Below are positions 17,701-60,690 of a stretch of 64,000 bases of DNA, in pieces. Location: the NCBI GenBank assembly GCA_016946835.1, contig JACVTC010000048.1:391001-455000 (forward strand), read 5' to 3'. This stretch comes from Neocallimastix lanati (nom. inval.) (Eukaryota > Neocallimastigomycota > Neocallimastigomycetes > Neocallimastigales > Neocallimastigaceae). Position numbers and translations under genes: made by a program. The first letter of the stretch is position 1, and every line of letters starts with the position of its first letter. The notes under the pieces were generated by a model. The model did not search any database. It was given only the letters and a program-made list of their open reading frames with translations, and was not told the DNA's origin.

Positions 17701-18712
17701 ATAAAATAGTTATTTTAAAATTTGTCAAAAAAAATAATAAAATATTTAATAATAAAATAGATTAATAAAGTTCTTTTGATAAAAACATATTTTATTTCTC
17801 TTTCATTTAAGGTCTATTATATTTTCTTATAATAAGCTCTAATTTTAAAGATAAGTATTAAATTCTTATTTTTATTTTAATTTTTATTTTAATTTTTATT
17901 TAATCTTAATAGTTTAGTTAATATGTTAAAATTAAGATATAAAATAGTTTTATGATTAATAACGTTACTAGGTTAATATGTTGAATTATATATTAATAAT
18001 CCAACAATAATTAATTAATAATAATATAATTAAAATAATATAAGATAAATAGTTAAGTTATTTGAACACTTAATATCTAAGAATATTTTAAATAATAATT
18101 TCTTTGAAGGATTTAATGAAAATATTTATTTATTGAATTATTAGTATATAATTATTATAAATACAATAACCTTACAAAGAACATAAAAGATAGATTTTTA
18201 CATCTTTCTTTTATACTTTGTAAGTTACATAATAATAATATTTAATTATAAGATATTAATAATATAGTAATATGAATATTAATAAAATATTAAGATAATA
18301 ACAATATCGATATATTTAAAATATTTAATATAACTAAATAAATTTAATTTATAATTATATAATTAATTTGAATAATTAAAAATAGTAGTTAATATATATG
18401 ATGTAAACATATATATAAACATAATATAAATAATTACATGTGACGTCATATGTAGATAATTGAAATTATTAATATAAATCTTATTTACTAATATTCTCAG
18501 AATTATTAGGCCTAAGATAATTCTTTAAATATTAAATAAGAATTTATATTAATTATTAATTATTTAAATATATATATTATTTATAATTAAATAAATAATA
18601 TTTTTTAACTATTGAAATATAAATAACTGAAATTGAGATTTCAATTCAGTTATAATTTCAACATAATATTAATTATAAATAATAATTCCTATAATTTATA
18701 GAAATTATTACA
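17701..18712 (+). repeat. C' : C-type LTR fragment split by a solo LTR
   Basis: 17701-17923 and 18664-18712 match the last 275 bp of the C LTR (45989-46265), ending GAAATTATTACA. The break is a family-I solo LTR with TAATA duplications. The right end of C' would lie 18 nt upstream of the tRNA-Leu if all later insertions are removed. Confidence 0.75.
17924..18663 (-). mobile_element. Solo LTR, family I
   Basis: A 740-bp unit with ends TGTTAAAATTAAG and ATTTCAACA, flanked by TAATA at 17919-17923 and 18664-18668. It contains TGACGTCA at about 18446 and the hairpin-forming CTTTGTAAG/CCTTACAAAG segments shared with 5875-6070. No internal coding region, so it is the product of LTR-LTR recombination. 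Confidence 0.78.
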
Positions 18713-18720
18713 CAAATTAA

Positions 18721-19572
18721 TGATACGGGCTGGGGTTGAAACACTAAGATATTCAAAACAAAAAAAAATAAATATTAACACATAACTATAAAAATAAGTT
18801 TGGAAACAAAAAAAAAAATTAAATTTTAAAATATTCTTTATTTAAATTTAAAATTAAAATTATTTGTTCCCAGTATTAAAAAGAAAGAAATTTATTCTTC
18901 TTTTTATACTTTTATTTTAATACATTTTATTTATTATTAATATTTTCTTTATAAAAAAAAAACTATTATAACTATTTTATTTTAATTTTTAACTATTATT
19001 TTAAATTATTTTTTTAAAAAAAAAAAATAACATTTATTAAATTAAAATATAAAAAATTAATTTAGAGCTTGTATCACGAAGGGCATTCCGGGCGGTAGCT
19101 TCTTCTTGATATTGTTATTCAGAGAGAGAATTATACAGAATTGATATTTTCTGTATTTTAGATCATTTTTATTATTGGAATTCTTCTGTATTTTAGTTCA
19201 TTTTTATTTTAATAAAGATTTAATTTATTTTTAATTTTTGTTTTATTTTTAGTTTATTTCAAAGGTTTTAGAAAATATTATACAGAAACTTATAATTCTG
19301 TATTTTACATCAAATATTTATTGAAATAGGTTTTTATTATTCTTAATATAAAAATAAGAATTAGTAATGATTTAAATATTATATAATTTTTAATAAGAAT
19401 ATTTAGTAATAATTTTTATTATATTTAATATTAATAAAATATTTAATAATTATTTTTATTAGATTTGATATTAATAAAAGATTTTAATAAGAATATTTAA
19501 TAATAATTTTATTTTATTATTATTAAGAGTATTTGATAAGAAATACAAGGTATTTAGTGACACCCCGCATCA
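18721..19572 (-). mobile_element. K: LTR remnant flanked by TTAA
   Basis: Starts TGATACGGGCTGGGG and ends ACACCCCGCATCA. TTAA lies on both sides (18717-18720 and 19573-19576, the latter shared with D). Inside, GCTTGTATCA at about 19067-19076 followed by CGAAGGGCATTCCGGGCGG looks like an LTR end next to a PPT region. K may therefore be an internally deleted minus-strand element rather than a plain solo LTR. No coding frame. Confidence 0.5.
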
Positions 19573-19576
19573 TTAA

Positions 19577-20136
19577 TGGTATGTTATTTTTATATATTGT
19601 ACCTTTTATATGATTTGGGGAAAGCAAGTTGTAAAATTATAAAATAATATATTCTAATAAAAGAAATAAATAAAAAAATTATAACACAAAATTAATAATA
19701 AATTTTTTAATAAATAATAATGTGTTACTTTTAAATCTTTATTTTATTTATAAGTTTTGTTCTTTAAATAAGTACATTTAATTTTATTATAACTTTATTA
19801 TATCTTTAAATTTATATTTTAATAATAATATTAACCAAAATATCCTAAATATTTATTCACCCGAATAAATATTTTATAATTCCTATTCTAACTATTATAT
19901 TCTTTAAAGATATTAAATTATTAAGTTCCTCCTTTGTTAATATTTATCTTTCACTTATTTTTATACTATAATTTATCTTAATTCTTATTGGTTATCTATT
20001 AATTAAAATTATTTTAATTAATATTATATTTTTATATACTAATTAAACCTTATACCTATTATAATAAAATAACTAAAGAATTATTTATTTTCTTATATTT
20101 TTAATAATTTATTCTATTTTAGTGAGTAACGTACCA
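19577..20136 (-). repeat. 3' LTR of D
   Basis: A 560-bp LTR. It starts TGGTATGTTA where the 5' copy has TGGTACGTTA, and ends TAACGTACCA where the 5' copy has TAACGTATCA. Confidence 0.88.
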
Positions 20137-20175
20137 AGACGCCCCCACTTTGTCTAGACTTCGTCCCTTGAAGTC
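20137..20175 (-). promoter_or_regulatory. PPT region and conserved hairpin of D
   Basis: Minus-strand GTGGGGGCGTCT abuts the LTR. 20157-20175 is the 19-mer hairpin identical to those of E and F. Confidence 0.65.
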
Positions 20176-20395
20176 GTGGTTTATGGATATAATGAATAAA
20201 AATTTTTATAAAAATTAAAAAAAAATGTTATTATATTCTTTAAATTTTTTTTTTTTTTTTTTTTTATACTTGAACTATATAACTATATAAATTTTTTTTT
20301 TTTTTTTTTTTTTATATTATATATATACAATTTCATACAATAATGTACATGTATACATTACATATATGTAATTTATACTATATTGTATATGCATA

Positions 20396-20426
<31 letters not shown>

Positions 20427-20970
20427 AGGTAAGTAAATTGTAAAATTATGTTATATTGTTTATAAAATTTTATAAAATTATATACTTGTTTACTAATTTA
20501 ATTTATATATATTCTGTCTATATATCTTTGTATATTTTAATATTATATTTTACTATTATATTTTACTATTCTATTTTACTATTATATTTTACTATTATAT
20601 TTTACTATTCTATTTTACTATTCTATTTTACTATTCTATTTTACTATTCTATTTTACTATTATATTTTACTATTCTATTTTACTATTATATTTTACTATT
20701 ATATTTTACTATTCTATTTTACTATTCTATTTTACTATTCTATTTTACTATTCTATTTTACTATTATATTTTACTATTCTATTTTACTATTATTTTTTTA
20801 CTATTATATTTTACTATTATATTTTACCATTATAATCTATTATTATATTTTTATTATATTTTATTATTTATATCTAATAAAAGAAATTACTGGATTAGAA
20901 ATGTGAATTAATTTATTAAACTTTTCAACAATAGCTAAATGTTTATTTTTGTAAGTTGAAATTCAAACGC

Positions 20971-21017
<47 letters not shown>

Positions 21018-21114
21018 TCGTTATCTATATTTTGAAGATTATATAATTGTATTATTTATCTATCTCAATAAATTTTTTTTACAGCGTGTTATTGTCAGGA
21101 AGTTATAGGTTGTA

Positions 21115-21158
<44 letters not shown>

Positions 21159-21253
21159 TAAAAACCATATTTATTTTATATATATTATTTTTTAATTTAT
21201 AATTGATAATAAATATTAATAAATAAAAAAAACTCATATGTAAATATTATTAT

Positions 21254-21301
<48 letters not shown>

Positions 21302-21403
21302 GTATTCTTTGATTATCTACTTATTAAAAAAAAACTTGCTATAAATATTGTTTTAATTATTTAATAATTATTGTAAATATATTTATATTATCTGATAAGT
21401 ATC
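20176..21403. other. 3' non-coding region of D with simple arrays
   Basis: No gene. 20545-20830 is a 13-bp tandem array (TTCTATTTTACTA and variant TTATATTTTACTA, about 20 units). Poly-T tracts of 20-45 bp lie near 20240, 20285, 20970, 21120 and 21260. Confidence 0.7.
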
Positions 21404-24400
21404 TTAGTCTTCATTTGTGAGGTTTAGTTCCGTAAAGTATGGAATAATATTCTTCAGGTGGATATTACGTTCTGCTAGTTCACCAGTCGTTGGGTCGCAT
21501 ACTGTCACTGTGTTTAATTCTCTTTTAACAATTTGTAATGGTCCTGTGAAGAATGGGTCTAGCTTCCTTCGATTAAATACTTTCACTAATACTAAGTCCC
21601 CTGGTTTATAGTCACTTCTCATTCTTTTGATTTGTTTCCTTCTATCGGACCAAAGTTTGTTTGCGGTTTCAATATTTCTTATGGCTTCCTTTATCCACTT
21701 ATCATGTATCAAAAATTTTCTGAGCCAGTACTCTTCATCACTTTCCCATTCATTTTTCTTTTCAATATTAATGGATAATTCGAAAGGTTGTATATCCCTC
21801 CTTCCATACAATAATTCGAAGCTACTGTGTTTTGTAACTTCACTTTTACAAGTACGTAGTGCCCATAAAGCACTATATAAAGTCTCATCCCAATGCTTAT
21901 CTTTTTTTCCCAGGATTCGTAGATACTTCCCAATTTCTTTGTTTCTGTTTTCAACTTCTCCATTCGAGGCTGGATGGTAAGTTGAAATATAGTGAACATA
22001 AACATCGTGTAGATCTAAGAATGCTTTTGTTTTATCTGCGGTGAACTGTGGACCATTGTCTGTTACCAGTATCTCAGGGATACCATGTCTTGAGAATACT
22101 TTCTTTAAAAAGTTTATCACGTCATCTGCTTCCGATGTTACTAGTGGTTCAGCCTCTACCCATTTTGGTTAAATAGTCAACTAGAACAATTATAAATCTA
22201 TTACCTCTTGGAGTTTCTGGTAGGGGTCCAATTAAATCGAGTCCAACTCTTGAGAAAGGGTATCCTGGAGGAGTGGCATTATCTTCTGGAAATTGATTTA
22301 ATGTTTGTGGCTTACATGTTTGGCATTTGTAACAACATCGAATATAATTATTAATATCCTTTTTCATATTTTTCCAATAATAATCTCTTTTTAGTCTGTT
22401 GTATGTTTTATATACTCCCTCATGGCCAATTTGATGAGCTTGATCAATTAATGTTAATTTTTCTTCTATGCTTTTCACTATGTACCTTAATTTATCGCCT
22501 TGTTTATAATATTCTTTGCCATCAATAATTATTATTCTTTTTTTGATATAATCTTCTATAAATTTATTAATATTATTACTATTATTGTTATTATTATCAC
22601 TTATACCATTATCACTATTATCAACTTCATTATTATTGTTATATATAATATTTATTGTTTCTTTAGGTTTATCAGAAGTTTCCAATCTAGACAGGGCATC
22701 AGCTATGACATTCTTCCTCCCCTCTTGATATTCGACTTTAACATTCAAGATGGATAATTCCGTAACCCATTTGAGATGTCTACTATTGGTAGGTTCACGA
22801 TTATTAAATATACCAACAAGCGGTTTATGGTCAGTATAAACTATAGTTATAAAAGAATTACCAGTGATAAATTGTTTAAATTTCTGAACACAATGGAAGA
22901 CAGCTTTACCTTCCAGGTCAGTAATACTATAATTTTCTTCCGATTTACTTAATGATCTACTTTCATAAAAAATAGGAACCTCAAGATTATTTTTATCTCG
23001 TTGTAGAAGAACACCTCCTAGTCCATCTCTAGAAGCATCGGTACGTATAATAAATGGTTTAGAAAAATCTGGGGGAGTTAATATAGGTGCTTGTATTAAT
23101 TTATTTTTTAATTCTTCAAATGCTTTAATACACTCTTCGGAAAAGTTAAATATCGAGTTCTTCTTTAAAAGGTAAAACAATGGTTTTGCTATTTGAGCAA
23201 AATTTTTAATAAATTTGCGATAATATCCTATAGCACCAAGAAAAGATTTAAGTTGTGTAGTATTTTTAGGTGGTAACCAATTAACAATTGTTTTTACTTT
23301 TTCAGGAATAGGAGAAATACCATCTGTCGAGAGCTTGTGACCAAGTAGTGAAACTTCTTTTTTAAAGAATGAACATTTTTCCAAATTAATTTTTAATCCA
23401 TTGTCTTTTAGTATCTTAAAAACACGACGTAAGTGTAAAATATGTTCATTTATATCTTTAGAAAATATAACTATATCATCAATATAAATAAATACACATT
23501 CACCAATTAATTCAAAAAATATTTTGTTCATTTCTCTCTGAAAGGTTGCTGGGACGTTACATAAACCAAATGGCATTACTCTGAAGTTGTAATTGCCATA
23601 CATTGTGGTAAATGCAGTCTTTTCTTTATCTTCGGGAGCCATTGGGATTTGGTGGTATCCTGAAAAAAGGTCAATCGTAGACAGGATTTGTGAATTATTT
23701 CCGATTTGCAAAAGAATTTCATCGATTAAAGGTAATGAATATGAATCTTTAATTGTTATATTATTTAATTTACGATAATCAACGCACATTCTCCAATCTT
23801 TATTATTCTTTTTAGGTACTAAGACAACAGGAAAGGACCAGGCAGAGAAAGACGGTTCAATCAACCGATTATTGATTAAAAATGTAAGTATTTCTTTGAG
23901 AGCCATAAATTGAGCTTTAGAAAGTTTATATGCTTTCAGTTTTATTGGTTTAGCATTTGGAATTAAATTAATTCTATGTGGTAATAATTTAGAAGTTCCA
24001 AGGTCATCAGTCTTCACAGCTAATATGTCTTTAAAAATTTCGAATAGCTCCTTTATAGAGTTCTTATATTCACTAGGTACGGCATTAATAATATCATTTA
24101 TTAGATTTTCTTTAACATTAATAGTTTGTTCTAATTGTTTATCTTTATTCTGAATAACTATAATAAGTAGTAAGGGTGTAGATGCATTTGTGTTTTCTTT
24201 ATTAATTTCTTCTCCTGAGTCAATTGGATTTTTCAGATTAATATCGTAGTAAAGGTCAGCTAATTTCTTGTAAGTATTATCTTCATTAATATAATATAAT
24301 GAGTCATTAACTAGGTTAATATCAAACCTATTTTTCTTTAATGAATCAACTCCAATTAGAATGTCGAAAAGGTCATCTTTTTCAATTACTCTAAAATAAT

Positions 24401-25538
24401 CTTGGAAAGTCTTGTCTCCTATAGTTATTTCTAGCTCATATATTTCGGATTCAATTGTCGAGTTTGAACAAGCTTGAAAAATAGTTTCTGAGATTCTTCC
24501 TATGGCAGGTTTGTTTATATTATATTTTTCTAAAGCAGATCTTGTAATAGCATTAACACTAGCGCAAGTATCTAAAAATATCTCACAATTGGTATTTTCA
24601 ACTTTTCCTTTTACTTTAATTATTTTAAATTTATTAACTATTGTCATCACATTATTAATAGCATTACTTTTAGGAGTAAGCTTCAAAGCTTTACTAAATG
24701 CTGTTCTGAATTTTGGGAATAGATCAAGTAAGTATCCTAATTTAGTAATAACTTCAGTAGATGCAACTTCTTTTAATAGATCTTGTATTAAATAATCATC
24801 AAATTGTTCTATTAATTTAATATGTTTTTCTTTAGATTCTTTGTTGTTACTTAATGAAGATGGAGATTTCTTTGAATTTTCAATAATATCTTTAATTCTT
24901 TCTTCATAATTGTTTCTTTTACTCGTTCTAATATTCTTCTCGGCTATAATTGAAGGATCTAAGTACTCCAATTTTTCGGTTTGATTACTATTAGAGGTAG
25001 TTTTATTATTTTTATCTAAAGTAGTATTCTTATCTACTGTATTTGTAGACTTATTTTTATTAATTTCATTATTTGGTATACCATCTTCAATATCATCTTT
25101 AATCATAATTACATCTTCAATTGGTAAAGTATTAGTTTCCATATTTTGATCCTTTTGGTTATGCACCTTTTTTTCTTCATCAAGACAAGCATCATATTTG
25201 TTGTTATGTCTCATAGCTGCTGTTTGAATCGGCGTCGGATTATTCTTTAATGTATCATTGGATTTCTCTTTATTATAAGGAATGGAACTTACGTTTTTTT
25301 CTTTTTGTTTTCTGACAGCTGGTGCAAGAACTTCAATTGGTTTATTAATATGTAAAGGTTGATAATTTGATATTGATTTATTATGGTTATTCATATTATT
25401 ATTATTAATATATTTATTATTAATATTGTTACTATTATTATTAATATTTCTATTATGATGATAACAATTATTAGCATTGTCTTCCATGTGGTTGGTTTGT
25501 TTACTGGAAGTTATCCTTCTCCCATTTAGTGGTTTAAA
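21404..25538 (-). pseudogene. pol: D pol, one-base frameshift in integrase
   Basis: Pol follows gag by -1 frameshifting at 25532-25538. It contains the linker motif KNNPTPIQTAAM, protease IFLDTCASVNA, reverse transcriptase WRMCVDYRKLN and IYIDDIVIFS, RNase H FIIRTDASRDGLGG, and the integrase zinc region (HQIGHEG, CYKCQTC). At 22163-22166 (plus strand T4) an extra base turns LTKWVEAEP into LTKMGRG and a stop at 22149. The original frame resumes and runs to 21404 through VTDNGPQF, NGEVENRNKEIGK and FTGPLQIVKR. This homopolymer slip is the only lesion I see, so inactivation is recent, or a sequencing error. The integrase core is lost from the encoded protein. Confidence 0.88.
25505..25538 (-). 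promoter_or_regulatory. -1 ribosomal frameshift signal of D
   Basis: UUUAAAC (25532-25538), a 7-nt spacer with the gag stop at 25526-25528, then the hairpin TGGGAGAAGGATAACTTCCA (25505-25524). Confidence 0.8.
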
Positions 25539-26707
25539 GATTTGTTGATCATTCCCCTTTCTTCCATTTCCGCTAATTGTTTGAACGAATAGGGGCAGTT
25601 TGAAGCCTTGTGCCCATTTTGGAAACAACGGAAACAAGTGGTTTTCCTATTTTGGTAGTCTTTATTAAAACTTTTATTATATTCCTTATTTGGAATAACC
25701 CCTGGATTTCTATTTATGGTAGTTGTAAGTATATTAGCATCAATACTGTTATTATTGTCATATACGTTACTATTTTGAGAAACTGCGGTAGCTATATTGT
25801 TGGTATTGTTATCGTTACTAATATTATTGTTTTTATAATTGTAATTAGAGTTATTACTATTTTGTATTCTATTAGGTAAATAATTATAATTATAGTTGTT
25901 GTTATCCATGATATTATTCATACTTTGATTGACGTTAGTATTATAATTATTATTGAGGTTCATAAATCTTGAACCATTACTAAAGTTTCGGTTGTTCCTT
26001 CTAAAAGGTGGACGAAAATTATTATTGTAAACATTTCTATTAGTACTTTGATTTATATTATGTTGATAAGAAGGTTCTCCATAAAAATTCTGATAAAATG
26101 GGTGATTCATTATAGGACTATCCAAATTTTGCACAAACATTAAATTAGATCTATTCTTATTATTATCTTGCCCAATATTACTGATTATTTCTTTTTCAGC
26201 TTCTTCGGATACTTCAGCTACCTTAAAAGCTTCAGATAAAGTTTCGCATTCGGATGTCATAACTCTTGAACAAGGAAAGACCCGTGTACTTATAGCAGTA
26301 GTATAGTCCTTTATTGAAATTAGTTTTTGATATTCTCTTGGTAGGCCTTTATATAATATTTTGTATCTATGATTAAATTTTTTTATAGTTTCTTTATTAT
26401 TAATTTTTAATGATTTTAATACTGCACATTTATCATTAGGTGTAATGTGCAAGTACTCCTCAACGGCAGCTTGGATTTCTTTGAAGCTGGGATATCTAAC
26501 TTCGTTTCCATTCTTACTTTTTAAAGAGTTTAAGGCCCCATGCATGTCTTCTTCGACTGCTTCTTTGGCCCAAACAAAAATTCTTCTTGGTTCCACAACA
26601 TCGTAGAGCTCCATCACTCTGACTAATTCATGCATCCATCCATCAACATCTTTTCCATAGTCGATGAGATTTGGTAATGCTTTCTGTAATTTGGCAGCGT
26701 CAATCAT
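25526..26707 (-). CDS. gag: D gag with zinc knuckle
   Basis: A 393-residue gag starting MIDAAKLQKALPNLIDYGKD. The capsid-like first half shares MELYD, EPRRIF and KEAVEED with E gag, and an Asn/Tyr-rich middle follows. The nucleocapsid knuckle is CFRCFQNGHKASNC. It ends NKSLNH-stop right after the slippery TTA-AAC codons. Intact. Its close match to E gag, with clear divergence from F gag (MDSLKIYKVLPMLEDY), puts D and E nearer to each other. Confidence 0.88.
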   Translation of the reverse strand: MIDAAKLQKALPNLIDYGKDVDGWMHELVRVMELYDVVEPRRIFVWAKEAVEEDMHGALNSLKSKNGNEVRYPSFKEIQAAVEEYLHITPNDKCAVLKSLKINNKETIKKFNHRYKILYKGLPREYQKLISIKDYTTAISTRVFPCSRVMTSECETLSEAFKVAEVSEEAEKEIISNIGQDNNKNRSNLMFVQNLDSPIMNHPFYQNFYGEPSYQHNINQSTNRNVYNNNFRPPFRRNNRNFSNGSRFMNLNNNYNTNVNQSMNNIMDNNNYNYNYLPNRIQNSNNSNYNYKNNNISNDNNTNNIATAVSQNSNVYDNNNSIDANILTTTINRNPGVIPNKEYNKSFNKDYQNRKTTCFRCFQNGHKASNCPYSFKQLAEMEERGMINKSLNH

Positions 26708-26952
26708 GATAAATAGAATTTATTAAAAAAAAGTAATATAAAATAGTTATATTTATTTATAATATAATAATTGTTTTGTAAAAAAAAAAAATGAAGAAAC
26801 AAAAAAAATAAAAATTGTTTTATAATAATACAATAAATGCTTTTGTACTATAAATATATAAAATAAAAAAATGAATGAATTAAAGTAAAGTAATTTCTCT
26901 TATTATTTTCATATTATTTTATCTTGCTTCCGCCCGGATTCTCCACCAATTT
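26708..26952 (-). promoter_or_regulatory. Leader and primer-binding site of D
   Basis: Minus-strand TGGTGGAGAATCCGGGCG (plus 26931-26948) begins 4 nt from the LTR and has the TGG start expected for a tRNA CCA end. The same 18-mer occurs in F. I could not name the primer tRNA. Confidence 0.7.
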
Positions 26953-29804: not shown

Positions 29805-29827
29805 CGATGCCCCCGCTAAGACTCAAG

Positions 29828-35461: not shown

Positions 35462-35471
35462 ATCTCGCCCT

Positions 35472-42006: not shown

Positions 42007-42063
42007 ATTTCTTGAGTAGAAATTATACAGTAATATAGGTAAAATATTCAAAATAAAATAATA

Positions 42064-42103
<40 letters not shown>

Positions 42104-42631: not shown

Positions 42632-42678
<47 letters not shown>

Positions 42679-43552: not shown

Positions 43553-43576
43553 CCCCGATATCTCCACCAAACTTTA
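43553..43576 (-). promoter_or_regulatory. Primer-binding site of A
   Basis: Minus-strand TGGTGGAGATATCGGGG (plus 43553-43569), 7 nt from the LTR. It shares TGGTGGAGA with D and F but then differs. Primer tRNA not identified. Confidence 0.65.
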
Positions 43577-46265: not shown

Positions 46266-46277
46266 ATAATAACTCTT
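46266..46277 (+). promoter_or_regulatory. Self-priming primer-binding site of C
   Basis: ATAATAACTCTT, directly after the LTR, is the exact reverse complement of 45929-45940. No TGG start is present, so a tRNA CCA end would not pair. Confidence 0.8.
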
Positions 46278-46426
46278 CTAGATAATTAGTTAATTGTATT
46301 ATGATATTGTAGTACAAAAGTAAAAAAAAAAAAAAAAAAAATTTATTTTATCCGATCAAATAAATAAATAGATAATATTAGAGAAAAAAAAAAATTATTT
46401 TTCCAATCAGATAAATAAATAATATA

Positions 46427-46471
<45 letters not shown>

Positions 46472-51108: not shown

Positions 51109-51118
51109 GGAGGTGCAA
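51109..51118 (+). promoter_or_regulatory. Polypurine tract of C
   Basis: AAGGAGGTGCAA just overlaps the stop codon and abuts the 3' LTR; it is the likely plus-strand primer. Confidence 0.55.
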
Positions 51119-51916
51119 TGTAAGAAATTGATATAAATTTTTATAATTTATTTCTATTTCTTATTAATTAATAATTATTTCATAATTATTATTCATTAAA
51201 AATTTATTTCATTTAAAAACAATTATACCAATTAATGTATTAATTGTTATATGAAAAAATGTATTTAATATAACTTCTGTATTATTTCATAGAAAAAATG
51301 TATTCAATAAAATTTCTGCATTATTTTATCCTTCTCTTTTTTATCCTTTTTTCTTTTTAATTCTTTTAGTTATTAAAATCGGTTATTAAAGTTTTCCCGA
51401 TTAATTATAATTGGTTTTATTTAATAACACGATGATCAATAAGTATAGATTATTGATCAAAAATCTTTCCAGTTTTTTCTTCTAATCTTTTTCTGGAAAG
51501 AATCATTGTTAAGATTAGAAAAATCCATTTACTTTTGTAAAAAATATAAATAGCTGTTGATTTTCGTCTTTAGAAAATCAAGAGTTATTATTTTAAGAAA
51601 AATATAATAACAATAAAAGACATTAATATTTCCATTAATATAAAATAGTTATTTTAAAATTTGTCAAAAAAAAATAATAATAAAATATTTAATAATAAAA
51701 TAAATTAATAAAGTTCTTTTAATAAAAACATATTTTATTTTATTTCTCTTTTCATTTAAGGTCTATTATATTTTCTTATAATAAACTCTAATTTTAAAGA
51801 TAAGTATTAAATTCTTATTTTTATTTTAATTTTTATTTTATTTTTTAATTAATCTTAATAGTTTAGTTAATATTAATTATAAATAATAATTTCTATAATT
51901 TATAGAAATTATTACA
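51119..51916 (+). repeat. 3' LTR of C
   Basis: 798 bp with the same sequence as 45468-46265 on reading. CACAT follows. Confidence 0.9.
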
Positions 51917-51922
51917 CACATA

Positions 51923-52456
51923 TGATACAATTAATTTAAAAAGTATCATAAAATATGGGAAAAGCAAGAGGGAATTAATCAAGAAATATCGTATTTATGA
52001 AATAGTATAATAATTATTATATATTTATATAATACACTCAAATTATTATTTTAGAATATAATGTTCATTTTATTATGTTTATTTATTAAAATTATTCACT
52101 TTATTATATTTATTTATTAAAATAATTATTCACTATTATTCATTCTCAATTAATACATTTCAATAAAAATAAAAACACAACATTTTTTTTTTATAATTAA
52201 AACTTCCTAATTTTTATCTTATTATTCTCTATATTATTATTATTTAAAATTTGTACTTTTACATAATTAATTATATTATATATATTTTTATAATAAACTT
52301 ATATTAATAATAAAATAATAAAATAATTTTATAATATTATATCTTATTAAATATTAATTTTAACTTATTTAGAAAATATTAATAAAAAAATTATTTACAA
52401 TAATATTTAAAATAATAATTATATCACTTTACATTCTTATTAAATATCTCGTATCA
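51923..52456 (-). repeat. 3' LTR of F
   Basis: 534 bp, TGATACAATTAATTT to ATCTCGTATCA. Ends are short inverted repeats TGATAC/GTATCA. Confidence 0.9.
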
Positions 52457-52610
52457 GAACGCCCCTTCTTTAGACATGACTTCGTCCCTTGAAGTCAAAA
52501 TGGAACAAAGTTAATATATATATTATTAAATATTTATAATAAAATTTTTTTTATAAATTTTTTTATAATATTTTTTTTTTTTTTTTTTTTTTTTTATAAA
52601 ATTTTTTATA

Positions 52611-52650
<40 letters not shown>

Positions 52651-52661
52651 AATTTTTTATA

Positions 52662-52708
<47 letters not shown>

Positions 52709-52722
52709 TTAATTTTGTTTCT
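52457..52722 (-). promoter_or_regulatory. PPT region, conserved hairpin and poly-T units of F
   Basis: 52488-52506 is the 19-mer hairpin shared with D and E. 52545-52705 repeats TATAAAATTTTTTATAATAT plus a long T run three times. No gene. Confidence 0.65.
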
Positions 52723-55700
52723 TTAATCTTTAAATTCAATAAAGTTAGTAATATAAGGAATAACATTTTTTAAATGAATGTTTCTTTCTGCTATTTCGTT
52801 AGTTATTGGATCACAAACAGTGACTGTGTTAAATTGTTGTTTCACAATTTTTAAAGGTCCTAAAAAGTATGGATCCAATTTTCTTCTATTAAAATTTCTG
52901 ATTAATACTAAATCTCCAGGTCTAAAAGAACTTCGGAGTCGTTTTATTTGTTTCCTTCTATCACTCCACAATTTATTTGCTGTTTCTATATTTTCTATTG
53001 CTTCCTTTATCCATTGATTATGATTTATGAATTTCCTGATATAATATTCTTCTTCAGTTTCCTCAGGAAGTCTTTCATCCATATTAATAGTAAGTCCAAA
53101 TGGTTGTAAGTCTCTTCTACCGTATAGTAATTCGAAACTACTATACTTAGTCACTTCATTTCTACACGTCCTAAGTGCCCATAATGCACTTGGTAGAAGA
53201 TCATCCCATTCCTTGTCATTACTTCCTAGAATCCTTAAGTATTTAGAGATTTCCCGGTTACGATTTTCTACCTCACCATTTGACGCAGGATGATATGTAC
53301 TAATATAATGTACATAAACATCATTCAAATCTAAAAAAGCCTTGGTTTTATCCGCTACAAATTGTGGTCCATTATCTGTTATTAATAATTCAGGAATTCC
53401 ATGTCTTGCAAAAACATTAGTGAGAAATCTTATAACATCTTCTGATTCTGTTTTTTTTAATGGTTCCGCTTCTACCCATTTGGTTAGGTAATCTACTAAA
53501 ACTATTATATATCGGTTTCCACGCTTTGTTCTGTATAATGGTCCAATTAAATCTAATCCAACTCTAGAAAATGGTAGACCAGGTGGAGTAGCCAAATCTT
53601 CAGGATAGCTATTCGTTGGCTGAGGTTTGCAAGTTTGGCAATTATGACAACATTTAATAAATAATTTGATATCTTTGATCATACCCTTCCAGTAAAAATC
53701 TCTTCTCAGCCTATGATAGGTTTTATAAATGCCCTCATGTCCTATAGTATGAGCTGCATTTATTAATTTCCATTTTTCTTCTTGATTGTTGATAACTTTC
53801 CTTAATATATTATTTTGTTTATAATATAGTATATTATCTATTTTAACAAATTTTTGATTAATATAATTTTCTAAAAAATTATTTAAACAATTTCCACTAT
53901 CCACAACATTATTGTTATTATTGTCATCAACTTTATTATTGTTATTATTAATATTATTATTACTATTATAAGGATCATTAATATTAATAAATATATTATT
54001 AATTTCTTCTTTTTTATCTTTATTATTATTTTCTAAAATTTTATATTCTTCAATTTTTTCATTTAGTATTCTTGTATTATTAACGCTATTAATAATATTA
54101 TTATTTTTATCTTCATTATTTAGATTTTTATTGACATCCTTATTTTCATTATTTAAATTTTTATTTTTATTTTTATTTTCATTATCCTCAATATTAATTT
54201 TATTTTTGACTTTATTGTTATTTTCCTTAATAGTAAATTTATTTTTATTATTTTTGAAAGTGAATTTATTAATGTTTTCATTAATAATATTTTTATTATT
54301 ATTTTCATTTGTAATATTTGTAATTTTGCTTTTATCTTTAATATTATCTCCATTATTTATTAACTTTTCCTTTAAATCATTTTTATATTTTCCAACGTTA
54401 TTAGTTTCTTTGTTTTGGTTATTAAATAACCCCTCCCCCTCCTTAAAATTGTTATTAATATTTAAAGAATTTTTATTGTCATTGATGTTAATTTTATAAT
54501 CTTTTTTAACAGACATTCTAGATAAAGCATCAGCAACTACGTTTTTCTTACCTTCTTCATATTTAACATTAATTTTTAAAGTACTAAATTCTGTTATCCA
54601 TCTTACATGGCGACTGGAAGTAGGTTCCTTATTATTAAAAATATAAACTAATGGTTTGTGGTCAGTAAAAAGAATAGTTTCAAAACTATTGCCTGTAAGA
54701 AAAGGTTTAAATTTTTTTACACAATAGAAAGCAGCTAGACCTTCAAGTTCTGTTATACTATAGTTGTTTTCAGCGTTAGATAGAGTTCTACTTTCATAAT
54801 ATAAGGGTTTTTCAATGTTATTATCATCAAGTTGTAAAAGTACTCCTCCAATACCCGCTTTTGATGCATCAGTACGAATTATAAATGGCTTATTAAAATT
54901 AGGAGGTGATAAAATTGGAGCTTTAACTAGTTGAGTTTTTAAATATTCAAAGGCTATATTACATTTAGTAGACCAAATAAAAGGAGTATCTTTCTTAGTT
55001 AGTTCATATAAGGGTTTAGCAATTTGAGCAAAATTACTAATAAATTTCCGGTAGTACCCAATTGCTCCAAGGAATGAACGTAATTGTTTAATATTAGTAG
55101 GAGGTAACCAATTAGTAATTATTTCAATTTTAGAAATCATAGGTTTAATACCTTTAGTTGATAGAGTGTGACCTAATAAATCGACTTCTTCTTGAAAGAA
55201 GTGGCATTTTTCGAAATTGACTTTGAGTCCATTATTATTAAGAATTTGGAATACTTTTTCAATGTCTTTTACGTGTTGTTCCAACGAACTAGAATAAATA
55301 ACTAAATCATCAATATAGATAAAAACACATACACCAATTAGATCAAAGAAAATTCTATTCATCTCCCTTTGGAAGGTTGCGGGAGCATTACAAAGACCAA
55401 ACGGCATGACTTCAAAATTAAAATTGCCATACAAAGTAGTAAAACAAGTAATATCTTTATCATCAGGATGCATCGGAATTTGATGATATCCTGAAAATAA
55501 GTCAATCGTAGATAATATTGTGGTATCACCACTGATATAATAAAGTATGTCATCAATAAGAGGAAGAGCATATGCATCCTTTAAAGTACAGTTATTAATC
55601 TTCCTATAATCAACACACATTCTAACTTGTCCATTTTTCTTCGGAACAAGTACAACGGGGGAAGACCACGGAGAACTAGAAGGTACTATTAATTTATTAT

Positions 55701-58479
55701 TAATTAATTTAATTAATTCTCTTTTTAATGCGTCAGCTTGTACTTTTGAAACACGATATGCGCGTTGTTTTATGGGTTCTGTTCCAGGAATTAAATTTAT
55801 TCTGTGAGGATATAATTTTGAGAATCCCAAATCATCAGTTTTTAACGCTAGTACACTAATGTATTCTAAAAATAAATTTTCAACACTTGATTTTAGATGT
55901 TCTGGTAGTTTATTAATAATAGAATAAATCATCTCAAATTTTGTCTTAGTATCGTTAATGGGTACGTTATCTTTATTGTCTATTACTTCATTTGTTATGA
56001 CTAAAAGTGCTGGTATTAAATAAGTATTAATATTGTGTAATTTATTTTTATATTCTTTATCATTTATTTTAGCTTTAAGTAATTTAGAAGGATCATTTAT
56101 TTCATCATTAAAATTTCTTTCTGAAACATTTTTAAGTGAATTATGAGAATTTAATTTTGACATATCATTATTAATATTTTCAGTATTTATTTTAGAATTA
56201 TTTATTTTTTTATAAATGATTTCGTTATTTTTATTTTCAATCTTATTTATTTGTTCAGTAATTATTTTAGGATTATTTATTTTATTACTAGAGATATCAT
56301 TATTATTTTTTTCAATATTATTTAAATTTGAATTAATATTATTATCAATTATAACATCAAGAAAACATAATGGATCATCTTTAAAATTATTAATATGAAT
56401 ATTTGGAATATCAGATTCCACATAAATAAAGAAGGTATTATTATCATTATTATTTATATCCAACTCATCATTTAATTTATTTTCATTAATGTCAGAACAT
56501 TCATCACTTAAACTATCATCATTATTATTTTCATCTAATTCTTGATCACCTTCATTTGTTTCATCAGTAGGTTTAAGATTAACATCATAAAATAATGAGG
56601 CTAGTTTAACAAAATTATTATCATCATCAATATGATACAGAGTATCATTTACTAAGTTTATATCAAAACGATTTCTTTTTAAAGTATCAACACCAATTAA
56701 TATATCAAATATATCATCTTTCTCTATTTTTCTAAAATAATCTACAAATGTGTAATTTCCAATAGTTATTGATAATTCATAAATATCAGAGTCAATAGAA
56801 TTATTTGAATAAACTTGAAAAATCTTCTCTGATATTCTTCCAATAGGATTTTTATTAATATTATATTTTTTCAGAGCTGAGGATGTAATTAAATTTACAC
56901 TAGCACAAGAGTCAAGGAATATTTCTACTGGTTTTTTATCAACTGTTCCTTTGACTTTAATCACCTTGTGCTGACTTATAATATTCATAACATTAATTAG
57001 TGAAGTATTTGCTTTTGTTGTATTATTCCCTTTTCCTTCTGTTAAACGTAAAGCTTTAGTAAATTCTGATCTAAACTTTGGGAATAAGTCTAATAAGTAA
57101 ACTAGTTTTGTTATTACTTCAGTTGAAGCTACCTCCTTAATTAAATCATTTATTTTATATTCTTTAAAAGTTTCCATCATTTTAATGTGTTTTTCCTGTT
57201 TATTAAATTCTTGAGTGATGGCTATTTTATTATTATTATTTTCTTCACTTAATATTTCTTTTATTTTTTTCTTTTTATTAATTTTTTTAGCATTCCTTAT
57301 ATTTGGTTGATTAATTACCGAAAGGTCAAGGTAATTTAATTTATTTGTATCTATATTATTATTATCCTTATCTTGTAATATATTATTTTTCGGAGAATTA
57401 TTATTATGTATTTCTTTTTTCTTAGTTATTAAATTTTCATTATTTTTAGAGTTAGTAATATTACTGTGTTTTTTATTATTTATTTCTGTATCTGTTAGAG
57501 AAATATTATCATGAATTTCAATTATATCATTAAAAGAAACATTTTTATTATTAGTTTTTGGAATATTTTTTTCATTAATTATATCAAATTTTCTAATAGT
57601 GTTATTTATTTCTTCATTATTTGGGAAATCATTAGTTGTCACATTAATTTCTTCCGTTTCCATATTTGAGTTTGTTGATTTATTAATTTTATTATTTAAT
57701 TTACTTTGAATCTTTTTTTTTATTGCAGGTGTGATAATTGGGACAGGATTATCTGTTAACTTTTTCTTAACTTCTTTTAGAAAAGGAGTTGATTTTGAAT
57801 TATTTTTATTTCCTTTTTTCTGAACCACTGCCGCAATTTCCTCCACTTCATCATTATCATTGAAATCATTATTATATTCATTTATTTCATCATTTTCAAT
57901 ATTATTTTCTTCTTTGTTTAAATAATAAATATTACTATTTTTTTCCATGTAATTTTGATTATTAGAATAATCAGGATAATTATTATATTTATTAACTTCA
58001 TCTTCATAATAATCATTATGCATTAAATGTTCATTATTATCATAATTACTCTCATTTAATTTTATATTATTAGAAAAGTTATTATTTTCAACATTATTAT
58101 TATATTTATTGTTGTTTATAATTTCGCCCTCCATTTTAAAATTGTTTTTATTATTAATATTGTTAATATTATTTATATTATCATTATCACTTGTATAATT
58201 ATTAATATTTTTAAAATTATTATATATAACATTGTTAGGAGAATTATCATAATTCATGTTGCTATTAATTTTTTTTATTTTGTCACTATCATTATTATAA
58301 TTATATTTTCCATTATCATTATAAAGAATTTTATTAGTTTCCATTATATGATTATTATTATTTAAATCTAATGAATATGTTAAATTCACATATTCGTTAT
58401 TATTGTTTTTATTATAGTTAATATTTTGTTGATTGGTTTGTTTAGTGGAAGTTATCCTTCTCCCAATATTTAGTTTAAA
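52723..58479 (-). CDS. pol: F pol, enlarged by Asn-rich inserts
   Basis: Open from the slippery site to 52723, about 1918 codons and roughly 390 longer than E pol. Motifs: TDNPVPIITPAI linker, protease IFLDSCASVNLI (about 521), reverse transcriptase VRMCVDYRKIN and IYIDDLVIYS (about 1056), RNase H FIIRTDASKAGIGG (about 1203). A linker of about 210 Asn/Lys-rich residues (54510-53870) follows, then the integrase zinc region (HTIGHEG, CHNCQTC; about 1576-1616), D-D-E core (LDLIGPLYR, ITDNGPQF, NGEVENRNREI) and LGPLKIVKQ. A second Asn-rich expansion separates protease and reverse transcriptase. The corresponding spacers in E and D are much shorter. All catalytic residues I can check are present, so the element may be competent. 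No chromodomain. Confidence 0.93.
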   Translation of the reverse strand, partial: FKLNIGRRITSTKQTNQQNINYNKNNNNEYVNLTYSLDLNNNNHIMETNKILYNDNGKYNYNNDSDKIKKINSNMNYDNSPNNVIYNNFKNINNYTSDNDNINNINNINNKNNFKMEGEIINNNKYNNNVENNNFSNNIKLNESNYDNNEHLMHNDYYEDEVNKYNNYPDYSNNQNYMEKNSNIYYLNKEENNIENDEINEYNNDFNDNDEVEEIAAVVQKKGNKNNSKSTPFLKEVKKKLTDNPVPIITPAIKKKIQSKLNNKINKSTNSNMETEEINVTTNDFPNNEEINNTIRKFDIINEKNIPKTNNKNVSFNDIIEIHDNISLTDTEINNKKHSNITNSKNNENLITKKKEIHNNNSPKNNILQDKDNNNIDTNKLNYLDLSVINQPNIRNAKKINKKKKIKEILSEENNNNKIAITQEFNKQEKHIKMMETFKEYKINDLIKEVASTEVITKLVYLLDLFPKFRSEFTKALRLTEGKGNNTTKANTSLINVMNIISQHKVIKVKGTVDKKPVEIFLDSCASVNLITSSALKKYNINKNPIGRISEKIFQVYSNNSIDSDIYELSITIGNYTFVDYFRKIEKDDIFDILIGVDTLKRNRFDINLVNDTLYHIDDDNNFVKLASLFYDVNLKPTDETNEGDQELDENNNDDSLSDECSDINENKLNDELDINNNDNNTFFIYVESDIPNIHINNFKDDPLCFLDVIIDNNINSNLNNIEKNNNDISSNKINNPKIITEQINKIENKNNEIIYKKINNSKINTENINNDMSKLNSHNSLKNVSERNFNDEINDPSKLLKAKINDKEYKNKLHNINTYLIPALLVITNEVIDNKDNVPINDTKTKFEMIYSIINKLPEHLKSSVENLFLEYISVLALKTDDLGFSKLYPHRINLIPGTEPIKQRAYRVSKVQADALKRELIKLINNKLIVPSSSPWSSPVVLVPKKNGQVRMCVDYRKINNCTLKDAYALPLIDDILYYISGDTTILSTIDLFSGYHQIPMHPDDKDITCFTTLYGNFNFEVMPFGLCNAPATFQREMNRIFFDLIGVCVFIYIDDLVIYSSSLEQHVKDIEKVFQILNNNGLKVNFEKCHFFQEEVDLLGHTLSTKGIKPMISKIEIITNWLPPTNIKQLRSFLGAIGYYRKFISNFAQIAKPLYELTKKDTPFIWSTKCNIAFEYLKTQLVKAPILSPPNFNKPFIIRTDASKAGIGGVLLQLDDNNIEKPLYYESRTLSNAENNYSITELEGLAAFYCVKKFKPFLTGNSFETILFTDHKPLVYIFNNKEPTSSRHVRWITEFSTLKINVKYEEGKKNVVADALSRMSVKKDYKININDNKNSLNINNNFKEGEGLFNNQNKETNNVGKYKNDLKEKLINNGDNIKDKSKITNITNENNNKNIINENINKFTFKNNKNKFTIKENNNKVKNKINIEDNENKNKNKNLNNENKDVNKNLNNEDKNNNIINSVNNTRILNEKIEEYKILENNNKDKKEEINNIFININDPYNSNNNINNNNNKVDDNNNNNVVDSGNCLNNFLENYINQKFVKIDNILYYKQNNILRKVINNQEEKWKLINAAHTIGHEGIYKTYHRLRRDFYWKGMIKDIKLFIKCCHNCQTCKPQPTNSYPEDLATPPGLPFSRVGLDLIGPLYRTKRGNRYIIVLVDYLTKWVEAEPLKKTESEDVIRFLTNVFARHGIPELLITDNGPQFVADKTKAFLDLNDVYVHYISTYHPASNGEVENRNREISKYLRILGSNDKEWDDLLPSALWALRTCRNEVTKYSSFELLYGRRDLQPFGLTINMDERLPEETEEEYYIRKFINHNQWIKEAIENIETANKLWSDRRKQIKRLRSSFRPGDLVLIRNFNRRKLDPYFLGPLKIVKQQFNTVTVCDPITNEIAERNIHLKNVIPYITNFIEFKD
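58446..58479 (-). promoter_or_regulatory. -1 ribosomal frameshift signal of F
   Basis: UUUAAAC (58473-58479) followed at once by the gag TAA (58470-58472), within a 7-nt spacer, then the hairpin TGGGAGAAGGATAACTTCCA (58446-58465), identical to that of D. Confidence 0.82.
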
Positions 58480-59659
58480 TGATTATTATTAAGAAGTCCT
58501 TTTTCCTCCATTTCTGCTAATTGCTTAAATGTATAAGGGCATTTATTACTCTTGTGTCCTTCTTGGTAACAACGATGGCAATATAATGTAGAATTTGGGC
58601 TGTTTAAATCAAACCCTTGCTGAATTCTATTTTGAATATCGGAGTTATTAATAAATTGTTCTTTTCTATTTTTTATATACGGATTTTTGATTTGATTATT
58701 TTGATCATGATAATTATTATATCCTTGAATATTATTATAATTATTTTGTGGAACTCCAGCATTATAATTATTAGTTCCATTGTTTATATAATTAAAATTA
58801 TTATTTCTTCTATTACTGCTATTATTAAAATTATTTATATTTCCATTTGTACGGTATTTACCATAAGGATTATTGAGTGTAGCTCTATTTGGATTATATA
58901 AATTAAAATTATTACTATTATTAAAAGAATATTCATTATTATTAGTATTCCAGTTATTGTTAATCATATTATTATTTTGTTGATAATTATTTCTTGGATC
59001 TGCATTAAAATAATTAAATGTAGGATTTCTATTTCTTCTTGGGAAACTAGTATTTTGAGTCAACATAGATAAATTTCTAATATTTCTTTTATTGTTAGTT
59101 GTTCTAATTTGATATTCTTCATTACTATTATTATTATCTGGTTTGTTCCATTCCTTCTCTGCTTCTTCAGCCGTTTCAGCAATTTCATAAGCTTCATTCA
59201 AGGAATCACATTTAGACATAAATACTTGAGAATAAGCAAAATTCCTTGACTTTATAGCGTTCCTATAAGTTTTTACTGAAACAATTTTTTGGTAGTCTCT
59301 TGACAGATCGTGATATAATCTTCTATATCTATCATTAAAAGTTTTTATTGTTTCATTTTCTTTAATTTTTAATCCTTGAAGGTAGGTCAACTTATCTCCT
59401 TCGGTAATTCCAAGATGTTCTTCTACTGCCTTTTGAATTTCCTTAAGAGAAGGGTACACACCTGTTCTTTTATTTATTAGTCTTCTTAAAACGGCTTTAG
59501 TATTTGAATCCACAGCTTCAGAAGCCCAAGTAAAAATTCTTTCCGGGTCTTTTATATTGCAAACTCTCATTAAGTTGCTAAGGTCTTCAATCCAATCCAC
59601 TACATTATTTTCATAGTCTTCTAACATAGGGAGGACTTTATAAATTTTCAAAGAATCCA

Positions 59660-59660
<1 letters not shown>
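58470..59660 (-). CDS. gag: F gag with zinc knuckle
   Basis: A 396-residue gag, start MDSLKIYKVLPMLEDYENNV. The capsid-like half (to about 180) keeps DPERIF and a late EIAETAEEAEKE helix seen in D and E. Residues 180-360 are Asn/Tyr/Arg-rich. The zinc knuckle CHRCYQEGHKSNKC is near 365. It ends NNNHLN-stop on the slippery codons. Intact. The sequence around the ATG sits after a TTA-repeat leader. Confidence 0.88.
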
Positions 59661-59704
<44 letters not shown>

Positions 59705-59974
59705 ATTTATTATTTTTTTTTTTTTTTTTTATAATGTATATTATATATTATTATTTATTTTTATTATAAATATATAATTCTCTGATTTTCTTGGCTATTT
59801 GTTTTAAATTTTCAAGGCTGTGAATTATATCTACTCTCTTGACTTACTCAATTTTCGATTCTATTCACCCTTTATTCTCTTTAAAACAAATCCAGTACTC
59901 TCTCAGTATTAATATATTTTTATAAATGAATTTATATTTTTTAAAATATTTATAAAATAACCACAATTTATTAT

Positions 59975-60010
<36 letters not shown>

Positions 60011-60141
60011 AAATTTTTTTTTTTTTTATAATTTTTTTTTTTTATAAATTTTTTTTTATAATTATTATTTATTTAATTTTTATACTATATTTTCACGATA
60101 TTTTCCTGCTTGCTTCGCCCGGATTCTCCACCAAAAATGGT
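59661..60141 (-). promoter_or_regulatory. Leader and primer-binding site of F
   Basis: An AT-rich leader with TTA and poly-T runs. The primer site TGGTGGAGAATCCGGGCG on the minus strand (plus 60116-60133) begins 8 nt from the LTR and is identical to that of D. Confidence 0.7.
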
Positions 60142-60675
60142 TGATACAATTAATTTAAAAAGTATCATAAAATATGGGAAAAGCAAGAGGGAATTAATCA
60201 AGAAATATCGTATTTATGAAATAGTATAATAATTATTATATATTTATATAATACACTCAAATTATTATTTTAGAATATAATGTTCATTTTATTATGTTTA
60301 TTTATTAAAATTATTCACTTTATTATATTTATTTATTAAAATAATTATTCACTATTATTCATTCTCAATTAATACATTTCAATAAAAATAAAAACACAAC
60401 ATTTTTTTTTTATAATTAAAACTTCCTAATTTTTATCTTATTATTCTCTATATTATTATTATTTAAAATTTGTACTTTTACATAATTAATTATATTATAT
60501 ATATTTTTATAATAAACTTATATTAATAATAAAATAATAAAATAATTTTATAATATTATATCTTATTAAATATTAATTTTAACTTATTTAGAAAATATTA
60601 ATAAAAAAATTATTTACAATAATATTTAAAATAATAATTATATCACTTTACATTCTTATTAAATATCTCGTATCA
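60142..60675 (-). repeat. 5' LTR of F
   Basis: 534 bp, same sequence as the 3' LTR on reading. CATA follows. Confidence 0.9.
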
Positions 60676-60690
60676 CATAATAATCAAATT
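60676..60690. other. tRNA 5' flank used repeatedly as integration site
   Basis: CATAATAATCAAATT, the 15 nt between F and tRNA-Leu. TSD arithmetic places the entry points of C', K, D, A, G, C and F within or just beyond this segment (18, 14, 14, 13, 15, 17 and 15 nt from the tRNA, counting the duplicated bases). Confidence 0.8.

Follow-up and report, generated by a model that had tools for sequence, protein, structure and literature searches.

Among the retrotransposons known to target tRNA genes, Ty3 of Saccharomyces cerevisiae is described as docking on Brf1 and TBP via a vestigial chromodomain and its CTD (PMC8632968). DGLT-A, a Ty3/Gypsy element lacking a chromodomain but carrying a 32-residue extension in D. 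discoideum, inserts upstream of tRNA genes, at 13-33 bp in that species and at about 15 bp in most of the species studied, and a table note in the same source records several insertions at one tRNA gene (PMC5006619). The Ty3/Gypsy elements Tj1, Tca8/beta, Ylt1, Tyl3 and Tyl6, all from ascomycete hosts, are placed 1-30 bp upstream, measured from the tRNA start site or from the mature sequence, and the available text of PMC5911963 describes no ordered multi-family stacks for them.

Here we examined a window of 64,000 nucleotides from an anaerobic gut fungus, related to Neocallimastix by the match of a host transporter gene, in which several Ty3/Gypsy families lie one behind the other upstream of a single tRNA-Leu gene. 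Like DGLT-A, the elements stacked here are Ty3/Gypsy, with no chromodomain found, and lie about 15 bp upstream, a likeness in behaviour and layout. With Ty3 they share the order protease, reverse transcriptase (RT), RNase H, integrase, and the integrase of element C matches the Ty3 chain of 7q5b over 360 residues (E 3e-50), whereas that of element F gives a far weaker match to Ty3 (E 2e-11). Ty3 makes a target-site duplication (TSD) of 5 bp; that of C is 5 bp long and those of F, G, A, D and K are 4 bp.

A stack of elements upstream of a tRNA-Leu gene

The components of the locus are listed from the tRNA gene outward, followed by the three elements nested outside the stack (distances to the tRNA are after excision of the inner layers).

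60691..60771, plus strand: tRNA-Leu gene, anticodon TAG, the fixed reference of the stack
51923..60675, minus strand: F, full-length Ty3/Gypsy; identical LTRs 51923-52456 and 60142-60675; gag-like ORF 58470-59747, pol ORF 52723-58482; TSD CATA (51919-51922 / 60676-60679); 15 nt from the tRNA
45468..51916, plus strand: C, full-length Ty3/Gypsy; identical LTRs 45468-46265 and 51119-51916; ORF 47092-51108; TSD CACAT (45463-45467 / 51917-51921); 17 nt from the tRNA once F is excised
44626..45464, no strand assigned: G, solo LTR; TSD CATA; 15 nt from the tRNA
28188..44623, minus strand: A, broken Ty3/Gypsy with E inserted within; LTRs 28188-29804 (expanded T-rich array) and 43576-44623; TSD TAAT; 13 nt from the tRNA
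19577..28182, minus strand: D, Ty3/Gypsy with pol in two frames; LTRs 19577-20136 and 26953-28182 (the second split by Y); TSD TTAA; 14 nt from the tRNA
18721..19572, no strand assigned: K, solo LTR; TSD TTAA; 14 nt from the tRNA
17705..18712, plus strand: C', C-family LTR remnant, first 521 nt missing; 18 nt from the tRNA after the other excisions
15044..17704, minus strand: L2, truncated element of the F/D/A clade, LTR 15044-15863; older layer
14495..15039, minus strand: right LTR of L1, separated from L2 by the 4-nt spacer AACT; older layer
L1 beyond its right LTR: ORFs 8423-14400 and part of the left LTR, 6304-6673
34652..41670, minus strand: E, chromodomain-bearing element nested in A; TSD ACTAG (34647-34651 / 41671-41675); outside the tRNA stack
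27468..28131, no strand assigned: Y, solo LTR (TG..CA) of 664 nt inside the 3' LTR of D; TSD TATTT; found by eye; not at the tRNA site
17924..18663: X, solo LTR splitting C'; TSD TAATA; found by eye; outside the stack

ARAGORN calls the tRNA gene at 60690-60772; we replaced its start by G60691, a reading that puts T at position 8 and A at the discriminator. A sequence-only reading of the window had proposed that elements inserted repeatedly at this site, the youngest innermost, with distances of 15, 17, 15, 13, 14, 14 and 18 nt for F, C, G, A, D, K and C'; these distances are consistent with G60691 as first base and were reproduced on exact re-reading. The six TSDs (F, C, G, A, D, K) proved exact, the left CATA of G taking its CA from the terminal CA of A as had been claimed, and serial excision recovered one ancestral flank, CAAATTAATAATCAAATT, directly 5' of the tRNA-Leu gene. 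TSD logic thus supports the proposed insertion series. The chain itself stood, but the count of about seven events was too low: to the left of C', beyond a deletion junction at 17704/17705, the stack continues with the LTR of L2, the 4-nt spacer and the right LTR of L1, so that at least nine elements make up the pile. The L2 LTR ends in CATTCTTATCA, and the identical end occurs at six sampled tRNA genes.

Alignment of the LTR pairs showed no differences in F (0/534) or C (0/798), one in E within A (1/810), 3/519 plus 1/41 in D, and 4/735 in the non-repetitive part of A (15/1028 over the whole alignment, many of them in the T-rich array). K and G, as solo LTRs, and C', as a truncated copy, offer no LTR pair to compare. 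LTR divergence is consistent with D and A being older than C and F and does not contradict the proposed order, although it resolves neither C from F nor A from D. The expectation that decay tracks this order held for the matching LTRs of C and F but not for the reading frames, since A is younger than D by position and yet has its frames in more pieces; reading-frame decay is not a clean clock.

Short integrase tails at the tRNA site

Pfam domains follow the order protease, RT, RNase H and integrase between the LTRs of C, E and F, and occur in pieces in D and A. These five elements are Ty3/Gypsy (Metaviridae), and G and K are known from solo LTRs alone. Counted from the first GP-motif residue, the integrases of C, F, D, A, L1 and L2 have tails of 41-47 residues and stop before a domain such as the docking chromodomain of Ty3, whereas the tail of E has 155 residues and matches Pfam Chromo PF00385 (E 5.6e-8), making E the only chromovirus by domain content. 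No Chromo match was found in the integrase tails of C, F, D and A at a limit of E 10, including that of C, although C is 52% identical to E; a vestigial chromodomain fold may lie elsewhere in these integrases. Compared with Tf1/sushi-type chromoviruses, E has the chromodomain and was unseen at tRNA genes, while C, in which none was found, lies at them. In addition, 12 nt (C) and 11 nt (E) after the 5' LTR are complementary to a site within the element's own LTR, a mark of self-priming that parallels Tf1.

LTR ends upstream of other tRNA genes

Enrichment of LTR ends at other tRNA genes was then assessed in an automated maximal-segment scan of 64 distinct primary tRNA 5' flanks, a non-random sample biased to Arg(TCT), Asn and Thr. 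An LTR-like end lies 11-20 nt upstream in 42 of the 64 flanks (Asn 12, Arg 11, Thr 5, Ser 5, Gly 3, Leu 2, Glu 2, Cys 2), and in 40/59 when five flanks fetched by the window's own junction are left out. Both the reversed and the block-shuffled flanks gave 0/64 in the same scan, controls that address composition, not position. Of the 22 remaining flanks, eight lacked any match and 14 had their boundary outside this range, four of these (L001, L006, L076 and L234) also having a match that ends at 13-15 nt. The maximal-segment scan replaced a cruder one, in which a shared repeat was found in 58/64 flanks but only 15 fell within 11-19 nt, because its 22-of-26 match overran the LTR end.

As a further control we used copies of a dispersed tRNA-derived SINE, found by a B-box pattern. 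An LTR end lies 11-20 nt upstream in one of the 14 SINE-like copies (of 20) with an intact 5' end; in the first scan 3/11 had any match and none had one at 11-19 nt. In the sole positive copy (L096, missed by ARAGORN and so not in the first scan) the LTR end lies 15 nt upstream, as if an occasional SINE promoter could be used too. A second B-box pattern yielded mostly tRNA-less sites plus tRNA-Ser genes, and 6/14 fetched places gave no tRNA. For other Pol III genes, no LTR was seen by eye in four U6 copies from six matches listed, which suggests that either not all Pol III genes are targeted or U6 insertions are selected against; an LTR-like end lies 8 nt upstream in one of four 5S copies, and the other three retain a common flank. 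Within the sample, the predicted enrichment in a narrow window upstream of tRNA genes was thus found.

Neighbours of the LTR families

Viewed from the elements, F, C, G, D and K gave 72 distinct flanks on the outer right side, and in 51 of them the start of a tRNA or tRNA-like gene or of another repeat follows after a spacer of 0-7 nt, in contrast to 0/15 for the chromodomain element E beside a tRNA or LTR (Fisher p 2e-7, with flanks treated as independent). Only 8/72 are directly tRNA or tRNA-like by automated call, and the 21/72 left as 'other' include many that start like LTRs by eye. Left-side flanks were called less often (F 8/15, C 3/7, G 2/6). Two G rows called LTR (L136, L144) and a left-side C row (L215) resemble tRNA genes by eye, which leaves the total of 51 unaffected. 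To be called an LTR, a flank had to share a repeat with other flanks; the presence of TG within a few nucleotides was dropped as a criterion too weak on its own in AT-rich DNA. Each of the four LTR searches gave at least 37 near-full-length matches, a number that includes both LTRs of one element and near-duplicates, in a genome of 199 Mb, compared with twenty DGLT-A insertions in a compact genome (PMC5006619).

Same-family tandems a few nucleotides apart were found for D-D, G-G and K-K. F elsewhere adjoins G, A, K, C, L1 and L2, and this mixture, with K adjoining K and G adjoining G, suggests that the families overlapped in their times of activity. A global family order was sought among the sampled junctions and none was found; a junction alone leaves the older neighbour undecided unless the tRNA is in view. 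The idea of a stratigraphic record therefore applies to the tRNA-Leu locus but does not extend to the families as such.

Discussion

With exact TSDs, spacing and order at the locus, recurrence in the genome-wide sample, rarity at SINE-like copies, no instance among the U6 copies, and integrases that end just behind the CTD with no chromodomain found all observed, we put a probability of about 87% on the reading that in this gut fungus several Ty3/Gypsy lineages target the Pol III start region of tRNA genes for integration, in the manner of Ty3 and DGLT-A. Judging from the insertion positions, the integrase probably docks on the TFIIIB/DNA complex at the tRNA gene, and the CTD or another part of the integrase may replace the chromodomain contact of Ty3. 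New copies would land about 11-20 nt upstream, between the latest arrival and the tRNA, because the complex would set a constant spacing from the gene. With each duplication of 4 or 5 bp a usable slot would be re-created, and older copies would be displaced outward, so that position in the pile would give relative age.

The same distance bears on two other explanations. If the integrases recognised a short AT-rich sequence instead of the Pol III complex, the AT-rich TSDs, several of which share TAAT, TTAA or CATA, would be expected; but AT-rich DNA prevails throughout the genome, the sequence between LTR and tRNA varies among tRNA genes while the distance stays constant, and F copies elsewhere bear other 4-bp TSDs (CAGT, TGAT, AAAT and others) in 7/14 cases examined, the other seven having no 3-6 bp match. 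We regard this as very unlikely. Less probable again is a graveyard without targeting, in which insertion is random and selection spares only the copies upstream of tRNA genes. The intergenic DNA flanking tRNA genes could plausibly be safe, and LTR copies are very abundant (searches with the LTRs of F, C and G each gave 1,771 to 2,016 first-look candidates). However, selection can hardly confine LTR ends to so few positions at different tRNA genes, or produce the 0-7 nt spacers between adjacent LTRs, and E is also common (2,138 first-look candidates) yet absent from such sites in its 15 distinct flanks.

The structure of the pile speaks to the remaining possibilities. LTR recombination or segmental duplication could have built part of it, as the deletion joining L2 to C' and the near-identical duplicate loci L055/L056/L057, L047/L048 and L067/L068 (perhaps haplotype copies) might suggest; six consecutive layers, each with its own exact TSD, are not expected from recombination, and this origin seems scarcely more credible than the graveyard. 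Least probable of all is that the assembly mis-chained repeats beside the tRNA. Long identical LTRs such as those of F and C may confuse assemblers, but similar junctions recur at other loci with different tRNA genes and spacers, and excision yields one coherent flank.

Targeting by serial insertion at the Pol III start region also carries a broader claim, towards which we lean only slightly: that at least two distant Ty3/Gypsy lineages (F/D/A/L1/L2 and C) independently reached the Pol III slot without a chromodomain, nearly saturating the tRNA genes, and that ordered, TSD-verifiable piles form a relative clock genome-wide. tRNA targeting itself is known and has been attributed mainly to the scarcity of safe insertion sites where genomes are compact (PMC5006619); near-saturation in a genome of 199 Mb is unusual. 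If true, the claim would counter the view of tRNA targeting as chiefly a compact-genome strategy, the host here being a transposable element-rich anaerobic gut fungus. C and E, the one at tRNA genes with no chromodomain found and the other bearing one and lying elsewhere in the sample, form a natural experiment on integrase steering. For annotation, formerly close tRNA genes may now sit tens of kilobases apart. Finally, because the piles order events without a molecular clock, with TSDs verifying each step, LTR divergence rates and the periods of family activity can be tested against that order.

Stacked insertions upstream of tRNA-Leu

The genome comprises 199 Mb in 762 contigs, and the window (C423:391001-455000) has a G+C content of 23% and contains one tRNA gene. 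The sequence-only reading held that LTR retrotransposons had been inserted one after another just upstream of this tRNA-Leu gene. When the stack was excised serially, element by element, all target duplications (TSDs) proved exact on re-reading (F, CATA; C, CACAT; G, CATA; A, TAAT; D, TTAA; K, TTAA), and the LTR end of the C-family remnant C' then lay 18 nt, and those of the remaining layers 13-17 nt, 5' of tRNA-Leu. By our arithmetic, which assumes a match of ~0.34 per base and is uncorrected for boundary choice, the chance of six exact TSDs (4, 5, 4, 4, 4 and 4 bp) is in the order of 1e-12. Three nested elements lie away from the tRNA site:

E, chromodomain-bearing element inside A: TSD ACTAG, 5 bp
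X, solo LTR inside C': TSD TAATA, 5 bp
Y, solo LTR inside the 3' LTR of D: TSD TATTT, 5 bp

To the left of C', the right LTR of the outer element L1 (14495-15039) is followed, after a gap of 4 nt, by an LTR of the second outer element, L2 (15044-15863). At the L2/C' junction (17704/17705) there is no LTR end; the two are joined by a deletion. Elsewhere, L1-type LTRs adjoin F and G and L2-type LTRs adjoin F and K, and the L2 end, CATTCTTATCA, recurs in front of six tRNA genes of the sample (L024, L029, L079, L081, L083 and L233). The stack therefore comprises L1, L2, C', K, D, A, G, C and F, at least nine layers in all, with TSDs offering no check on the two outermost, L1 and L2; the proposed chain of insertions at one gene was borne out, while the count of about seven events was too low. 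Another tRNA-Leu(TAG) gene in the same orientation (L003, C423:382506-382647), with an LTR-like end upstream, is located 69 kb leftward, and the two genes may be former neighbours separated by growth of the pile.

Alignment of the LTR pairs gave 0/534 differences for F, 0/798 for C, 1/810 for E, 3/519 and 1/41 for D, and 4/735 for A outside a T-rich array, with two of these four at the array edge. Nothing in these ages contradicts D having been followed by A and then by C and F, although they do not separate adjacent layers; E is younger than its host element A by the same measure. Reading frames did not serve as a clock for the proposed order, A being more fragmented than the older D. The T-rich minisatellite is present in both A LTRs (28254-29070 versus 43640-43880), whose lengths differ by 569 nt, and the internal region of A carries repeated B-box-like GGTTCGAA..CGACCACC units (42340-42530).

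LTR ends upstream of tRNA genes genome-wide

From the fetched loci, 107 tRNA calls were obtained, with 92 distinct upstream flanks (64 primary, 17 second-of-pair and 11 SINE-like). Genes standing second in a close pair were excluded because their upstream neighbour is a tRNA. Each of the 64 primary flanks (Arg 19, Asn 14, Thr 10, Ser 7, Leu 4, Gly 4, Cys 3, Glu 2, Val 1) was matched against the other flanks and the LTR ends, and the position at which the best matches most often ended was scored. This position fell 11-20 nt upstream in 42/64 flanks and elsewhere in 14/64, with no match in 8/64. Reversed flanks matched in 4/64 cases, none at 11-20 nt (0/64), and block-shuffled flanks in 0/64. 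Without the five loci fetched by the window's own junction (L001, L002, L003, L004 and L006), the proportion was 40/59.

Close pairs, in which the second member has a tRNA and no LTR directly upstream, were seen at L009-L012, L014-L016, L023, L026, L027 and L248-L251; they include Asn-Arg (~14-16 nt apart), Cys-Gly and Ser-Cys. On another contig, C555:170732-399007 holds more than 30 tRNA matches with near-identical scores in ~230 kb, some in tandem at ~540-bp spacing, and all six places fetched there (L033-L038) contain tRNA-Arg(TCT). Near a tRNA-Arg of this contig lies a Na+/melibiose-symporter-like gene (~234.3-236.4 kb; L252/L035, two overlapping stretches joined), 84-86% identical to two Neocallimastix californiae proteins and 99% to one JGI protein. 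Its other relatives, among the 120 listed of 4394 matches, show 54-60% identity, three being labelled Prevotella. On these identities the host is regarded as related to Neocallimastix. The gene was likely acquired by horizontal transfer, since among the matches listed its relatives outside Neocallimastix are this distant and, where named, bacterial.

Flanks of the LTR families

We sampled 30 loci for F and 20 right ends each for C, G, D and K, taking the best-scoring, non-random copies per search, with K sampled via partial matches of related LTRs. After removal of internal ends (C 5, G 6, D 5, K 4, F 8) and duplicates (C 1, G 1, D 1, K 2, F 5), the 72 distinct right flanks comprised 6 tRNA, 2 tRNA-like, 43 repeat starts and 21 unclassified. 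The spacer to the next repeat start was 0-7 nt in those 43/72, most frequently 3 and 4 (both sides counted). For E, neither a tRNA nor a nearby repeat start was found in any flank (0/15, both sides; 20 ends fetched, 5 internal dropped), a difference from the five families with a Fisher p of 2e-7 when flanks are treated as independent.

Left flanks were called LTR for F in 8/15, C in 3/7 and G in 2/6 cases. Tandems of two same-family copies a few bases apart were found for D (C1:3576811-3577937), G (C89:297858-299544) and K. C occurs in both orientations; at L215 and L209, tRNAs are visible by eye on the reverse side, one a tRNA-Val and the other presumably an initiator tRNA.

Other Pol III genes

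SINE-like tRNA copies were treated in the same way as the primary flanks. Twenty were recognised, 14 with an intact 5' end, and an LTR end was present in 1/14 (L096, 15 nt upstream), which fits a rule in which the Pol III promoter, and not the function of the tRNA, is what counts. This tRNA-derived SINE is dispersed (L070, L080, L082, L092-L108); GGCATGGCACCAAATAATCGGATG or a similar sequence terminates most copies, and the 5' end is missing or altered in 6/20. For U6, no LTR was seen by eye at the gene start in the four copies fetched of six matches listed. For 5S, four copies were fetched of nine matches listed; three (L254-L256) share an upstream flank, and L253 diverges 8 nt upstream at ..CCGTATCA, an LTR-like end, hinting that 5S is possibly also hit.

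Two lineages and their integrases

Reverse transcriptase-integrase identity was 46-77% among F, D, A, L1 and L2, 52% between C and E, and 27-39% across the two groups. The C integrase matched Ty3 (7q5b; E 3e-50), the match reaching residue 1447 in a chain of 1547 residues. The best match of the F integrase was a foamy virus integrase, with Ty3 at E 2e-11. A Chromo domain is present in the tail of E (E 5.6e-8); for the tails of C, F, D and A, none was listed up to E 10. Measured from the start of the GP motif to the end, the tails have lengths of 47 (C), 45 (F), 46 (D), 41 (A), 44 (L1), 43 (L2) and 155 (E) residues.

In C, 12 nt after the 5' LTR (46266-46277) are complementary to its own LTR (45929-45940), and in E, 11 nt (40846-40856) are complementary to a site in its own LTR, which suggests self-priming, as in Tf1. 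In F, D and A, the 5' LTR is followed by TGGTGGAG-type sequence resembling a tRNA primer site.

Proposed mechanism and relation to known systems

Judging from position, the slot would be set by a measured distance from the gene and not by sequence. Every new insertion would duplicate 4-5 bp of the slot and so preserve it, and the next copy could land inside. TFIIIB is a putative partner. The Ty3 chromodomain (integrase residues 446-511) and C-terminal domain (CTD) are described as contacting Brf1 and TBP, and one Ty3 copy as inactivated by a frameshift disrupting the chromodomain (PMC8632968). With TFIIIB as partner and no chromodomain, the CTD or another part of the integrase would have to do the holding. 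DGLT-A of D. discoideum is likewise reported to have just a 32-residue extension (PMC5006619).

Targeting of tRNA genes by Ty3/Gypsy elements is well known (PMC5006619, PMC5911963), and for dictyostelids, multiple insertions at a single tRNA gene have been noted (PMC5006619). A literature search at the level of titles and abstract starts, with most subscription papers outside it, found no comparable description for retrotransposons, LTRs or tRNA in Neocallimastigomycota, Neocallimastix or gut fungi, nor for stacks, nesting or tRNA-upstream insertion. As far as this search shows, the lineage of the host, near-saturation within a genome of large size and the many-layer pile with intact TSDs are new, as is the sharing of one slot by two chromodomain-less lineages.
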